Shown here: piece after piece, positions 34,415-40,255 of the stretch | Numbering within the stretch: the stretch's first letter is position 1 | Layout: every line of letters begins with the position of its first letter | Origin: Azoarcus sp. | Lineage (GTDB): Bacteria > Pseudomonadota > Gammaproteobacteria > Burkholderiales > Rhodocyclaceae | Direction: 5' to 3' | NCBI GenBank assembly: GCA_031277975.1 | Contig: JAITLI010000007.1 | Location: forward strand, 1-50,754 | DNA length: 50,754 nt | Notes under the pieces: generated by a model | Seen by the model: the letters and a program-made list of their open reading frames with translations, nothing else | Database searches by the model: none | What the model was told of the DNA's origin: nothing | Position numbers and translations under genes: made by a program

Positions 34415-34795
34415 AATTGTTCCTAAATAGGTAATTCCATAATGAGATAATGCAAAGGAGGAACCTGATGTTCCGTCATCAGTAGCCTACCGACACATGC
34501 AAAGCTGGTGACGACTTTGTGTGAAACTGTCTGGACAATGTACCTGCCCGAAAGGGTATGTCGAAACGTGAGAATCGGCAACATCTGCCAGCATCGATGC
34601 GGATGCGGGGCCAGGCTGGATGGTATGATCAACACATGTGAACTGCTGATAAACCCCGTTAATAACTTTCACAAGCCAAAGATGCTGACAGGCTTGAACC
34701 AAAAGGTAGGTGGTCGGTTGCCTCTTTTTATAGTGGAAGCACACGGACATTATGACCACCAGCGGAGAGGCGGGGTCTAACCCATCTCGTTATTC
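34415..34795 (+). other. Possible truncated group II intron 5' RNA region (domain I-like) ending near a presumptive IEP start
   Basis: Low-GC, non-coding, motif-rich sequence (CCGAAAGGGTATGTCGAAACGTGAGAATCGGCAACATCTGCCAG... GATGCTGACAGGCTTGAACCAAAAGGTAGGTGGTCGG) similar in style to bacterial group II intron 5' regions. Confidence 0.35.
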
Positions 34796-34848
34796 AAATG
34801 GAACACGGCAAGCCCGTATCTCTGCCCTCCGGGGCAGGCAGACCGATC

Positions 34849-35028
34849 GGAAGAACGCGACATTGTCAACAACCGTCCTTTCCTCACGACAGCAACATCA
34901 TCGGCGCGACCAGCCTCGCACAACTGGAGGAGAACATTGGCAGCATCGACGTGCGGCTGGGTGCGGCGGTATTGGACGAAATCGAAGCAGCACACAAGCG
35001 GGCGCCCGTATCCTTGCCCGTAGCGTAG
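34849..35028 (+). pseudogene. C-terminal remnant of an aldo/keto reductase, frameshifted
   Basis: VNNRPFLT in one frame then SNIIGATSLAQLEENIGSIDVRLGAAVLDEIEAAHKRAP in another; typical AKR C-terminus. Confidence 0.75.
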
Positions 35029-35041
35029 CGGCAAACGCCGA

Positions 35042-36355
35042 TCATCCCGCCGCGAGTTTGCGCGCCAGCTTCTCCGCCGCCGCCCGCCGCCCTTGCCGCG
35101 CCAGCGTCAGATAGTCCGCGCCCAGCGCCACCGCGCCCCGCAAGCCGGCATACGTCCGGTCGCCGATCATCCGGTCATGCACCGGATGCGAGACGGTGAG
35201 GAGCGGCACGCCCAGTTCCCGCGCGACTTCTGTTTCGAGCGAGCTGGCGAAGATCAAATCCGCGCCGCTGCCGCACAGGAGATCGGCGATTTCGCCGCCA
35301 TCGCCCGTCGCGTGAGCCGCGCCGCCGAAGTCCACCGGGAGCGCATCTTCTTCGCCGCAATCGGTGTAGATCGCCGTCCGGATGTCGACGGCGGCGAAGC
35401 GGGAAAGAAAGCCGCCAATCCTGAGCACGGTCTCGGAATCGCCGACGATGGCGGCGCGCTTGCCCGCACCTTCGTCGAAATAACGATTCGCGGCACCGAG
35501 CAGGAAGTATTCCGCCAGCACTTCTTCCCGTTCCAGGAAACGTTCCGCGCCCGTGGCGTCCAGATCAAGCCGCTCCACCAACGCTTGCGCGAACAAGCTG
35601 ACTTCTTCGATGCCCAACGGCGCGGCGTCGAAGATCAATTGCGGAGTACCGTATTTTTTTTCCAACCGGGCGGCGATCGTTTCTCCCCAACGGGAAAAGA
35701 CCAGATTGAGAGCGGCATCCGACAATGTGCGCAGGGCGGCATGCCCGCCCGGACCGAAAAAGCTGTTGACCCGCAAACCAATGGCTTCGAGGATGCGGCG
35801 CAATTCTTCCAGATCGCCCTTGTAGTAAGGATCGCCGCCGGGGAAAAGGCCGAACAAATTCACCAGCGGGCGCTCGCCGCCTTTCTCCCGCAACCCGCGC
35901 ACCGTTTCCAGTTCCGGCAAAGCGTCGATCAGGTCGAGGAAAACGCGCGTGTAGCCGCGATGGATGTCGCCATGAAAACCAGCAATGTTGCTGCCGATGA
36001 CCTGCAAGCCTTGTTCAGCGGCCTCGCGCGCCATGCCGATGAGATCGTCCCCCACCATGGCGCACTCGCAGCTACCCACCACCACGTACAGACGGCCGTC
36101 CATCACCTTGACAGTGTTCTTGATCTGCTCGCGCAGGCGCGACCCACCGCCGAAAATCACCTGCTTGTCGATGATGTTGGAGGATGGCACGGTCTGGGCG
36201 ACGGTGTATCCACCCCTGTCCCGGTACGCCAGCGCATGTTGCATGGCGCAGCCCGCATTGGCCTGCACGATGGGAACGACGCCCTCGATGGCTTCCAGCG
36301 TCGCCAGCGCGCCGTGTAGCGCGCAGCCCGCGCGCGGATTCCTGATATTGCCCAT
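35042..36355 (-). CDS. Nitrogenase component 1-like subunit (NifK-like, retains three N-terminal Cys)
   Basis: NPRAGCALHGALATLEAIEGVVPIVQANAGCAMQ...GRLYVVVGSCECAMVGDDLIGM aligns with the NifK cluster-binding region; ATG at 36355 one base after the upstream stop. Confidence 0.85.
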   Translation of the reverse strand: MGNIRNPRAGCALHGALATLEAIEGVVPIVQANAGCAMQHALAYRDRGGYTVAQTVPSSNIIDKQVIFGGGSRLREQIKNTVKVMDGRLYVVVGSCECAMVGDDLIGMAREAAEQGLQVIGSNIAGFHGDIHRGYTRVFLDLIDALPELETVRGLREKGGERPLVNLFGLFPGGDPYYKGDLEELRRILEAIGLRVNSFFGPGGHAALRTLSDAALNLVFSRWGETIAARLEKKYGTPQLIFDAAPLGIEEVSLFAQALVERLDLDATGAERFLEREEVLAEYFLLGAANRYFDEGAGKRAAIVGDSETVLRIGGFLSRFAAVDIRTAIYTDCGEEDALPVDFGGAAHATGDGGEIADLLCGSGADLIFASSLETEVARELGVPLLTVSHPVHDRMIGDRTYAGLRGAVALGADYLTLARQGRRAAAEKLARKLAAG

Positions 36356-36356
36356 T

Positions 36357-37742
36357 TCAGCGCACTTCCCGCTTGACGTGCCAAGCACCGTTTTTTTTCA
36401 GCCAATTCTCGCTGTACACCTCCCGCACCCGCTCGCGAAAACCGGGCACTGGTCTGCTCAGCGCTCCGGCAAAGGCGCGAATGCCCTCGAATCCGTAATA
36501 GAGCGCGTCGTGTAACGAAACCGGCCTTGCCCCGAAACGGGCGGCGAATGCGACCTGCTCCGGGCCGACGTAATAATCGGCCCCCGTTCTGGCGAGCACG
36601 TTGGCAACCTCGAAAGGCTGCCCCACCGCCACCAGAGCGGGAATTTCGCCCGCCGCCTCCAGGCGGGCGAGATGGGCGCGGTTGTTCAGATCCACGCTAC
36701 CCAGAGCCACCCCCGCCACTTCGCCGCCCAGATCGCGCACCAAGGCGCCGAAGCCCTCGACCTGCGCCACATCGACTTGCAGGAACACGCGCTTGCCCGC
36801 CAGGGGCCGGGCGGCAAGCACGTCCCGCAAGGCATCTTCCTGTTGGCGCGCATAGATGTCCGCCGCGTCCGCGGCGTCAAAGATCCCGCCGAGTCCGGCG
36901 ATGAACCGGCGCGTCGCCTCCAGCCCGATGGGCGCGGGCAATTGCGGATACGGCACGTCGAAGGCCGCTTCTAGGCCAAGCCCGAAATATTCGCTTTCAT
37001 CGCGGTTGAGCGATACCGTGGCGCGCGCCCGCCCAGCCTTGCGAATGTGCGCCGGCGAGGAAAATCGCGGCAGGAAATTCCACGCGACGCCAAGCGCTTC
37101 GAGCATCGCGGCGACGGCGGCGAGGTTGCGCGCGTTCTCATTGACCGCCAGCAGATTGAGGAAATCGCCGCGCTCTTTGCCGCCGCCCGGCTCTTCCGCC
37201 AGCCGCAACAAGGCATGAAAGGCGATATCGCAGCCGGTCAGCGGCGACTTCGAGCGGAAGCCGTCCGTGTTCACATGCAGGATCGGGACGGATGTTTCAT
37301 CCGACAATTCCTGCAATACGGCGCTGACATCGTCGTTGTTGATCGCCACCACCGGCGTGCCGACGACGAAAACCGCCGCCGCGCCTTCGCCGATGGCGCG
37401 CAGGATCGTTTCGCGCAGGGGCGCTTCGCCGCCGAGGATGGAATCGCGTTCGCTCAGGTTGACCGAATACCAGCGCGCGCCGTGCGCTTCGGCGAGGGCG
37501 ATGGACGCCGCCGCGCAGCCCGCCGCGCCGTGGACTACGATGGCCGTGTCGCGGATGCCGCGCAGCACGGCAAAAGCCGAAAGAATGTCGTCACGGGCCG
37601 CCTGGGTGAAAGTGCGCACACGCTGCGGAATTTCCTCTCCGGCGGTATCGCCGATCAATGATGACAACGTGCCATGGTAATGGCTGATCGTGCCGCTGCG
37701 TTTTTCGCGGGTCGGCGCGCTTTTTCCTTCATGAAATGCCAT
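36357..37742 (-). CDS. Nitrogenase component 1-like subunit (NifD-like, degenerate ligands)
   Basis: IVVHGAAGCAAASIAL...SERDSILGGEAPLRETI...VVGTPVVAINNDDVSAVL parallels NifD; TAATG overlap with the NifH-like gene. Confidence 0.82.
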   Translation of the reverse strand: MAFHEGKSAPTREKRSGTISHYHGTLSSLIGDTAGEEIPQRVRTFTQAARDDILSAFAVLRGIRDTAIVVHGAAGCAAASIALAEAHGARWYSVNLSERDSILGGEAPLRETILRAIGEGAAAVFVVGTPVVAINNDDVSAVLQELSDETSVPILHVNTDGFRSKSPLTGCDIAFHALLRLAEEPGGGKERGDFLNLLAVNENARNLAAVAAMLEALGVAWNFLPRFSSPAHIRKAGRARATVSLNRDESEYFGLGLEAAFDVPYPQLPAPIGLEATRRFIAGLGGIFDAADAADIYARQQEDALRDVLAARPLAGKRVFLQVDVAQVEGFGALVRDLGGEVAGVALGSVDLNNRAHLARLEAAGEIPALVAVGQPFEVANVLARTGADYYVGPEQVAFAARFGARPVSLHDALYYGFEGIRAFAGALSRPVPGFRERVREVYSENWLKKNGAWHVKREVR

Positions 37743-38689
37743 TACGCCGCAGCCCTTTCCGCACCGTTTTCCAGATTGAATACCCGGTCGCCCCAGTCGC
37801 GCGCCCAGTCGCGCAGGTCGCCGACCCCGAGCGGTTGCGGGATCACGAGTTTGTCGTTCTCGGCGATGTGTCTGGCCAGTTCGCGGTAGATGCCGGCGTG
37901 TTCGCTGCCCGGATTGGCCTCGATCACGGTCTTGCCGTAAAGCTCGCTCTGCGACACCACCAGCGCGCGCGGCACATAGCCCGCCACGGGGACGCCGGTA
38001 CGGGCGGCGAAATCGTCGATGATGGCATTGGAGTAAGCGGCGGAAAGCCCGTTGCCGATGATGCCGCCCAGCCTGGCCCCGCCGGTCGGCGCGTATTTAT
38101 TCACCGCCTTGAAAAGATTGTTGGCGGCGTAGATGGCCATGAAATCCGACGACGTCACCACATAAGCCCGGTCGGTGATGCCATCGCGAATCGGCACGGC
38201 GAAGCCGCCGCAGACCACGTCGCCGAGTACGTCATAGAGGACGTAATCCGGTTTGAATTCTTCGAAAAGCTTCAACTCTTGCAACAGCGTCACCGCTGCG
38301 TTGATGCCCCGTCCGGCACAGCCGACGCCGGGCACCGGGCCGCCGGACTCGATGCACAGGATGCCCTTGAAGCCGGTGGCGGAAATATCGGCAAGATGCA
38401 CCTTGTTGCCGCCGCGCACGCTGTCCAGGACGGTGGGCAGGTAGTGATTGCCGCGCAGGGTATTGGTGGAATCGCTTTTCGGGTCGCAGCCGATCTGTAT
38501 GACCTTGTAGCCCGCTTCGGCCAGCGCCGCGCTGATATTGGAGGTCGTCGTGGACTTGCCGATCCCGCCCTTGCCGTAAATGGCGATGTGCCTGCCAGCG
38601 CTCTGGCTCTTGGGCGCCGCCGCGGGCTTTCCGTTTCCGGCGCCGCCGCGGCCATGGAATGAAACACGGTTGCTTTCGACTTCGCTCAT
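37742..38689 (-). CDS. NifH/BchL-like nitrogenase-type iron protein (ATPase)
   Basis: HIAIYGKGGIGKSTTTSNISAALAEAGYKVIQIGCDPKSDST; [4Fe-4S] Cys in GVGCAGRGI and GDVVCGGFAVPIR. Confidence 0.92.
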   Translation of the reverse strand: MSEVESNRVSFHGRGGAGNGKPAAAPKSQSAGRHIAIYGKGGIGKSTTTSNISAALAEAGYKVIQIGCDPKSDSTNTLRGNHYLPTVLDSVRGGNKVHLADISATGFKGILCIESGGPVPGVGCAGRGINAAVTLLQELKLFEEFKPDYVLYDVLGDVVCGGFAVPIRDGITDRAYVVTSSDFMAIYAANNLFKAVNKYAPTGGARLGGIIGNGLSAAYSNAIIDDFAARTGVPVAGYVPRALVVSQSELYGKTVIEANPGSEHAGIYRELARHIAENDKLVIPQPLGVGDLRDWARDWGDRVFNLENGAERAAA

Positions 38690-38756
38690 GCCAATCTCGC
38701 TATATAAAACCCGTCATTGAAGTTGATCGTGGTATTTCTTTGCCGTGCTTCGCCGT

Positions 38757-38912
38757 CTATTTTCCGATTTTGAAAATACCGCTTGCCCGCGGCGCTGTGG
38801 AAGTCTCTTTTGGCTCGCATCCGGTGAGGATAACCGACAATAGAGACAAAACGGCCATTGCAGCGACCGCCGCGTTTCGCATTGCCGGCGCGGAGATCAC
38901 TGCTCCATTCAT
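38757..38912 (-). CDS. Small predicted lipoprotein (51 aa), not in the supplied ORF track
   Basis: MNGAVISAPAMRNAAVAAMAVLSLLSVILTGCEPKETSTAPRASGIFKIGK; lipobox LTGC; GGAGAG upstream of the ATG. Confidence 0.6.
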   Translation of the reverse strand: MNGAVISAPAMRNAAVAAMAVLSLLSVILTGCEPKETSTAPRASGIFKIGK

Positions 38913-38925
38913 GAAAACTCTCCAT

Positions 38926-40161
38926 TCAGGCGGCCTTCAGTTCGGTATAGATATGCCGCTCCCACGGCAGCAAATCCCCGTCGGCGTTGAAAAGATAATC
39001 AAAAATCGTCTCTTCGCCATTGGTGCAGCGGTAAAAGTCCTCGTGGCTGAAACCATTCTTGCGAAGCAGCGCATAAGTCTTCAGCACCAGGTCGTGATAC
39101 CACTCGGACGTCGGCGCGCGATGGCCTTCCAGTGCGGAGCCCGGGTTCGGATTCCATTGCAGCGGAATGGCGACGACGCCCGACTCGATCAGGAATTGAA
39201 TGCCTTCCAGCGTCGCCGCTTTCGGCTCGATGCCGGAGACGAAATAGGAGCGCACGTAGCCTTTACCGAAGACTTCCACTTCATGCAACAGCGTATCGAC
39301 CCAGTTCTTGTGGCCGCCACAGATCGCATCCTTGCCAGGGCAGATGGACTTGAAAATATTGGCGTCCCAGATTTCCATGTTGGTGGCGATGCATTCGTAG
39401 CCCGCTTCTTTGTACTTGTCGATGACTTCCAGATCAAGCGGCGCGCCGATGCAGGCGGTACCGTTGAAATTATCCCGTCCGGTGATTTCCTGTATGGTTT
39501 CGGCCACGTCGATGTAATAATCCACCTCGCGCCGCTCGGGAATGAAACCACCCGTCACCGTGAGGCGGCGATAGCCTTCCTCATAAGCAGCCTTGGTGGT
39601 CTCCGCGATCTGGCGCGGCGTCTTGATGCCCAGACCTTCGAGATCGGCAAAAGCGGCCTTGGTGGCGTTGATGTTGCAGAACAGGCAATCCAGCCCTTTT
39701 TCCTGCAAGGAACACTCGTTGCTGTAGGTGATGGTGATCTTGCTGCGCCCCACGTACTGCGCGATCCGGGACATGGCGAGACCGTCGGAAGTCTGCCGGT
39801 CATACCACTTCGGCTTGCGCTGGAAATGCACTTCGAACAGGCGGTTCTCGCCATCATTGAGAAAATAGCGTCCACCCTCGCCGGTGATGGTGAAATGCGA
39901 GCGTGGATCATAAACAACGCCAAAACTGTACCCACTCGGGTCGCGGAAGGATTGCGGCAACTTGGTCACTGTGTGCACGTTGTGGTTCATGTTGAAGCAG
40001 CCATGCACCTGCTCCAGATATTCACCGTAATCCAGCGTCCGAAGAACGGTCTTGTCGATGGCGATGCCATCATTGAACAAGCGCTCCGACAAATCGATAT
40101 TACTGAAAAGATTTTCCCGTGTCAGTGGCCTGGGGATAAAGCCTTCGGAAACCGCATTCAT
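38926..40161 (-). CDS. Radical SAM protein with atypical CX8CX2C motif, nitrogenase-like cluster
   Basis: ITITYSNECSLQEKGLDCLFCNINATKAAF; RRLTVTGGFIPERREVDYYIDVAETI; RBS AGAGGAG before ATG. Confidence 0.8.
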   Translation of the reverse strand: MNAVSEGFIPRPLTRENLFSNIDLSERLFNDGIAIDKTVLRTLDYGEYLEQVHGCFNMNHNVHTVTKLPQSFRDPSGYSFGVVYDPRSHFTITGEGGRYFLNDGENRLFEVHFQRKPKWYDRQTSDGLAMSRIAQYVGRSKITITYSNECSLQEKGLDCLFCNINATKAAFADLEGLGIKTPRQIAETTKAAYEEGYRRLTVTGGFIPERREVDYYIDVAETIQEITGRDNFNGTACIGAPLDLEVIDKYKEAGYECIATNMEIWDANIFKSICPGKDAICGGHKNWVDTLLHEVEVFGKGYVRSYFVSGIEPKAATLEGIQFLIESGVVAIPLQWNPNPGSALEGHRAPTSEWYHDLVLKTYALLRKNGFSHEDFYRCTNGEETIFDYLFNADGDLLPWERHIYTELKAA

Positions 40162-40238
40162 ATTCGACTCCTCTCATGAAAGATGGCGACAGCCACAGCC
40201 GGAAGACTGCCGGACGCCTGGTTTGAGGGCGATATTCC

Positions 40239-40255
40239 AGCAAGCCACGTGCCAG
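40239..40255 (-). promoter_or_regulatory. Sigma-54 (RpoN) -24/-12 promoter for the nitrogenase-like cluster
   Basis: Minus strand CTGGCACGTGGCTTGCT matches YTGGCACG-N4-TTGCW, about 80 bp upstream of the radical SAM ATG. Confidence 0.82.

Follow-up and report, generated by a model that had tools for sequence, protein, structure and literature searches.

The window, a 50,754-nucleotide stretch on contig JAITLI010000007.1 of an Azoarcus sp. genome, carries on its minus strand genes for a radical S-adenosylmethionine (SAM) protein and for NifH-, NifD- and NifK-like proteins, which sequence comparison very likely identifies as isrBHDK, the genes for an assimilatory sulfonate reductase acting most likely on isethionate. 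The corresponding genes of Rhodobacter capsulatus SB1003 (rcc02237-02234), formerly nflBHDK and renamed isrBHDK for isethionate reductase (Isr), were shown to be indispensable when that organism grows anaerobically on isethionate (Morimoto et al. 2024, PMC11423573). In that organism IsrB, IsrH and IsrDK were all needed, as was the transporter SsuCAB; IsrDK was an iron-sulfur complex, sulfite was released, the isethionate lyase IslAB could stand in for NflDK, and isrBHDK together with ssuCAB carried the isethionate trait into R. sphaeroides (PMC11423573). The operon of the window is real, intact and nitrogenase-like, but of an already characterised kind. A preliminary description had taken it for an uncharacterised nitrogenase-like branch; its separation from Nif, Bch/Chl and Mar held, but the novelty did not, as IsrBHDK has been known genetically since 2024 (PMC11423573). 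New here are the presence of Isr in an Azoarcus-like lineage of metagenome-assembled genomes (MAGs), a conserved sigma-54-type promoter, a natural loss of the transporter and its linkage to the operon in relatives. Few relatives of nitrogenase have been given a function; Isr is one of them, and work on it has so far been confined to a single phototroph.

The features of the operon were as follows.

40254..40240, minus strand: sigma-54 -24/-12 promoter TGGCACGTGGCTTGC, TGGCAC-GTGGC-TTGC, 92 bp upstream of isrB
40161..38926, minus strand: isrB, variant radical SAM protein, 411 aa, matching NF045502 variant_rSAM
38912..38757, minus strand: ssuA scar (open reading frame of the "small lipoprotein"), 51 aa, recognised by alignment to the isrB-ssuABC-isrH region of the related locus L018
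38689..37742, minus strand: isrH, NifH-like ATP-dependent reductase, 315 aa, Fer4_NifH 9.5e-94
37742..36357, minus strand: isrD, NifD-like subunit, 461 aa, Oxidored_nitro 5.6e-56
36355..35042, minus strand: isrK, NifK-like subunit, 437 aa, Oxidored_nitro 1e-56

The coordinates and the co-directional arrangement of the radical SAM and NifH/D/K-like genes were confirmed, including the TAATG overlap at the H/D junction and the 1-bp gap between D and K.

Putative cluster ligands of the enzyme subunits

The profile Oxidored_nitro matched both D and K, and Fer4_NifH matched H, while D and K scored far below all equivalog cut-offs for nifD, nifK, nifE, nifN, bch, chl and cfb. The nearest solved structures of the three subunits were those of methylthio-alkane reductase MarHDK (PDB 9fmg and 9d9u). 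IsrH was approximately 60% identical to MarH and 49% identical to the NifH of its own genome; it contained the P-loop and kept both cluster cysteines, 36 residues apart, as are likewise Cys99 and Cys135 of R. capsulatus IsrH (PMC11423573).

The published signature of IsrD comprises one P-cluster cysteine (the Cys88 equivalent), Pro or Ser at Cys154, Arg at Cys62 and the lack of Cys275 and His442; it sets IsrD apart from CfbD, MarD, NfaD, BchN and BchY, and IsrK has all three cysteines (PMC11423573). In IsrD of the window, Cys76 (corresponding to NifD Cys88) was the sole P-cluster cysteine, Pro130 stood at the Cys154 position and no equivalent of Cys275 was present, and IsrK carried Cys11, Cys36 and Cys96 at the P-cluster positions. 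The alignment of 14 IsrD-like sequences, which included the window, related MAGs, four Lachnospiraceae, Treponema and Thiodictyon, had cysteine at the Cys88 position and proline at the Cys154 position in 14/14, cysteine in the Cys275 column in 0/14, and no conserved histidine equivalent to His442 in the inspected C-terminal columns. The three P-cluster cysteines were kept in all 12 IsrK-like sequences. MarD, Mar-like sequences and NifD retained the P-cluster and iron-molybdenum cofactor (FeMo-co) cysteines that the IsrD-like sequences lack. All unambiguously testable diagnostic features of Isr agreed with the published description; the assignment is a sequence-based one, resting on the residue signature and on synteny, with the R. 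capsulatus proteins compared by description.

The window and R. capsulatus thus share the B-H-D-K order, the one D and three K P-cluster cysteines, the lack of FeMo-co ligands, a radical SAM partner other than NifB and, here in close relatives, the SsuABC-type linkage. They differ in the sigma-54 promoter of the window, the text of PMC11423573 mentioning no sigma factors, in the adjoining transporter reduced here to a scar, and in the position of the operon between bio and atp genes. MarBHDK of Rhodospirillum rubrum (PDB 9fmg, 9d9u; PMC12552129) likewise consists of a B-H-D-K set and cleaves a C-S bond, but both the P-cluster and the FeMo-co cysteines persist in MarD, MarB is NifB-like and the Mar proteins form a separate clade. 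Dark-operative protochlorophyllide oxidoreductase (DPOR, BchLNB) is also a two-component ATP-driven reductase with cluster ligands split 3:1 between the catalytic subunits. There, BchN gives three cysteines and BchB an aspartate (PMC11423573), whereas here, in mirror image, the NifK-like subunit gives three ligands and the NifD-like subunit one, and no tetrapyrrole genes were found near the operon.

Phylogeny and distribution

In trees of D, K and H the Isr-like proteins formed a single clade that adjoined Mar without falling within it (D 97/94, K 99/99, H 96/95); NifK and NifH of the same genome, used as outgroups for K and H, carried long-branch warnings. Grouping of the window's clade with Mar was rejected by the approximately unbiased (AU) test (p-AU 3.3e-5). 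Membership of Mar was rejected on the D residues, the B protein that is not NifB-like and the tree. Membership of Nif/Vnf/Anf was rejected on the lack of FeMo-co ligands, D and K scores far under the equivalog cut-offs and a separate true nifHDK, located with nifE- and nifN-like genes on other contigs of the same genome. That of DPOR, chlorophyllide oxidoreductase (COR) and CfbCD was rejected on the equivalog scores and the lack of three cysteines in the NifD homolog. NifH-like sequences in genomes with a true nif operon may belong to sulfur assimilation.

The contig search detected seven loci in MAGs named Azoarcus sp., the window's own genus, with K identities of 67-91%, and further K homologs in Lachnospiraceae and another Clostridiales bin (38-46%), Thiodictyon (35%) and a Treponema MAG. 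The D protein was 35-43% identical to its distant relatives. These phyla (Bacillota, Spirochaetota and Pseudomonadota) agree with the distribution in PMC11423573. The isolate names of the Azoarcus MAGs and the termite-associated Rhodocyclaceae clade described in PMC10281810 suggest a termite-gut origin. The D gene was present in 8 of the 22 genomes of the genus, including the window's own, and the D profile detected no further D in 399 genomes of the phylum and 369 of the class. Only short partial matches of BchB or Nif type were found in 328 Rhodobacteraceae, apparently one per genus. Plasmid D matches (Chlorohelix and Treponema saccharophilum) fell into the Mar group and were used as outgroups. 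On the T. saccharophilum plasmid pTS2 (L101, 1-9229), which belongs to the Mar group, two nitrogenase-component-1 pairs flanked an ABC transporter and a NifX-like gene. A second, degenerate-looking isrD occurred in locus L022 (2120-3523, minus strand), 61% identical and with no H or K nearby; it had an isrB-like N-terminal fragment at its start and had lost the NNDD motif.

Transporter linkage and its loss in the window

In three related Azoarcus loci (L017, L018 and L019), three genes were located between isrB and isrH, encoding an SsuA-family binding lipoprotein, a TauB-like ATPase and a TauC/SsuC-like permease. In Lachnospiraceae, SsuABC-like genes were likewise neighbours of the operon (L034, L035 and L036, and partly L032), and in Thiodictyon (L037) an SsuB-like gene was. 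The placement of ssuABC between or beside the isr genes matches the requirement for SsuCAB in R. capsulatus, and the fact that uncultured Azoarcus-like and Lachnospiraceae genomes carry the transporter within the operon or next to it gives independent support for the sulfonate assignment. In L020 and L021, isrB directly preceded isrH. Directly 3' of isrK in L020 (5908-7656, minus strand) were a short-chain dehydrogenase and an NMT1/SsuA-like binding protein, a region that is a possible alternative uptake part. The preliminary description had raised the recurrence of an order with a small lipoprotein between the radical SAM and H genes: the B-H-D-K arrangement did recur elsewhere, and in L017 to L021 the place of the lipoprotein held either ssuABC or no gene.

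The small lipoprotein gene itself turned out to be the N-terminus of ssuA joined to an internal piece. When compared with L018, the interval between isrB and isrH in the window consisted of the start of ssuA, a 24-nt internal ssuA segment (96% identical) and a last part aligning weakly just beyond the end of ssuC, with approximately 87 bp and 2.6 kb missing (about 2.7 kb in total). The 51-aa open reading frame was 73% identical to SsuA residues 1-42 over 42 aa (E 1.4e-10), comprising the signal peptide and lipobox followed by "ASGIFK" from the ssuA interior. Judged by this alignment, it is a deletion scar, the rest of ssuA together with ssuB and ssuC having been deleted. The linked SsuABC-type transporter, an accompanying trait of Isr, was thus present in related loci and deleted in the window. 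No orthologous ssuA was found elsewhere in the genome by the genus-wide search; the genome encoded four paralogous SsuA-family binding proteins (23-28% identical). The deletion bears on uptake and not on enzyme membership, and the scar documents the natural uncoupling of an enzyme from its uptake system.

The dN/dS ratios (nonsynonymous to synonymous substitution) of D, H and K were 0.17-0.23 against the closest relative, whose contig ends short of the deletion, so that the ratios may in part reflect selection before it. Over all comparisons they were 0.05-0.25, B included, the values for B resting on more distant relatives. These low ratios indicate purifying selection on the four enzyme genes. 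The genome also encoded an assimilatory sulfite reductase CysI of 566 aa, and no Xsc was found above the curated cut-off. Of the Isr-positive genomes of the genus, 6 of 8 had a sulfite reductase, against 3 of 14 of the Isr-negative ones (Fisher p 0.026). With ssuABC deleted, the substrate has to be taken up by other means or be produced internally. Judging from the purifying selection and the retained sulfite reductase, the operon is probably still functional and supplied with isethionate through some other entry.

Alternative explanations

Several points weigh against the assignment as isethionate reductase. The substrate cannot be fixed by family-level homology, and the transporter of the locus is gone here, although R. 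capsulatus depends on its SsuCAB. For R. capsulatus too, the evidence stops short of purified activity and of the carbon product. Arg43 of D was invariant, and its alignment with the Cys62 position was uncertain. The association with sulfite reductase is weak, as the 22 genomes behind it are related and partly incomplete.

After loss of the importer, Isr might act on a sulfonate made internally or imported by an unrelated transporter, in which case its substrate or role would differ from isethionate scavenging; we regard this as unlikely. A little less probable still is an Isr paralogue of the same architecture acting on another C-S substrate, such as taurine, sulfoacetate, another C2/C3 sulfonate or an internal sulfur compound, the transporter loss then reflecting a change of substrate. 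Isethionate is indeed backed by homology at the family level only; D is 35-43% identical to distant relatives; SsuABC of the sister genomes did not reach the curated cut-offs set for sulfonate transporters of known function; and ssuABC was lost while the enzyme stayed under purifying selection. However, the SsuA-family transporter within the operon of close relatives points to an imported sulfonate-like substrate, and the other SsuA-family binding proteins of the genome could take over import. Isethionate reductase, compared with these readings, remained the preferred assignment.

A truly uncharacterised nitrogenase-like branch is very improbable: R. capsulatus Isr was compared through its published description rather than by alignment, but the Isr-specific features and the transporter linkage of relatives fit the known system. 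Hardly tenable, finally, is a Mar relative acting on methylthio-alkanes, since, although MarH and MarK are the nearest solved structures of H and K, D lacks the cysteines of MarD, B is unlike the NifB-like MarB and the AU test opposed the grouping.

The radical SAM partner IsrB

The preliminary description had read the radical SAM protein as not being NifB, which was borne out by its match to NF045502 variant_rSAM (1.2e-131, 439 bits, cut-off 125) and by its fold. Across 13 relatives, invariant cysteines were confined to Cys150-x8-Cys159-x2-Cys162 (CX8CX2C); a set of exactly three leaves no conserved position to ligate a second cluster. A sequence search among solved structures gave no match. 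The AlphaFold model (pLDDT 82, pTM 0.86) had HydE, LipA (lipoyl synthase), PylB and BioB (biotin synthase) as the nearest solved folds, and NifB was absent among the 50 best structure matches listed. The match to HydE, the [FeFe]-hydrogenase maturase, had a Foldseek E of 4.8e-9 over 232 aligned columns with 21% identity and a TM-score of approximately 0.43-0.5, a relation at the level of the fold only. The CX8CX2C motif of IsrB departs from the canonical CX3CX2C, and IsrB differs from HydE in an extra N-terminal region.

A NifB-like role was unsupported, as there were no extra conserved cysteines and no sequence match to a solved structure, and the modelled fold was HydE-like. These features favour a maturase/activator or substrate-modifying role over NifB-like carbide insertion. 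The earlier proposal that the radical SAM enzyme may supply a cofactor or substrate to DK was fair in part. Tandem isrB copies were observed in L017 (13880-16370, minus strand), L019 (13099-15052, minus strand) and L037 (14469-16851, plus strand), the upstream copy of L019 being truncated with an internal deletion. The invariant motif, the HydE-like barrel and the tandem copies make the service of IsrB to IsrDK easier to probe.

Proposed mechanism

That the substrate is the same here as in R. capsulatus is inferred, as are the cluster type and the role of IsrB. Sigma-54 RNA polymerase would transcribe the operon. The IsrH homodimer, with one [4Fe-4S] cluster, would pass electrons with ATP hydrolysis to an IsrDK heterotetramer, in which Cys11, Cys36 and Cys96 of K and Cys76 of D would hold one [4Fe-4S]-type cluster per DK dimer in a 3:1 ligand split. 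Since FeMo-co ligands are absent, the DK cluster or its vicinity is the probable site at which the C-S bond of isethionate is broken to give sulfite, following PMC11423573. The HydE/BioB-like IsrB may mature or activate IsrDK, or act on the substrate, and CysI would reduce sulfite to sulfide for cysteine synthesis.

Promoter and genomic surroundings

Sigma-54 control, as previously described, was supported by the site upstream of isrB: the pattern TGGCACN5TTGC matched exactly only at TGGCACGTGGCTTGC in the 50.7-kb window, against 0.15 matches expected at random. Similar sites (GG-N10-GC) were located 54-103 bp 5' of isrB in L017, L018 and L020, and 5' of the truncated first isrB copy in L019. 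TGCTGC-N-GCAGCA palindromes were found 146-198 bp before the isrB start codon in L017, L018 and L020, placed like binding sites of a sigma-54 activator; the counterpart in the window was weaker.

The flanks of the operon were confirmed as bio genes and the atp operon, in agreement with the described insertion between the two blocks. In the related loci checked, the neighbourhood of the operon contained no homologs of bioF, bioH or atp genes. Between the bio genes and isrK, positions 34464-34610 (plus strand) matched domains D1-D4 of a group II intron (RF02012, 107.6 bits), with no match to D5/D6 nearby; this element is a truncated group II intron and perhaps a trace of how the isr operon reached its site. 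The open reading frame at 34798-35028 (plus strand) had no Pfam match; its C-terminal part resembled the end of an aldo/keto reductase, and it is probably a gene remnant downstream of isrK.

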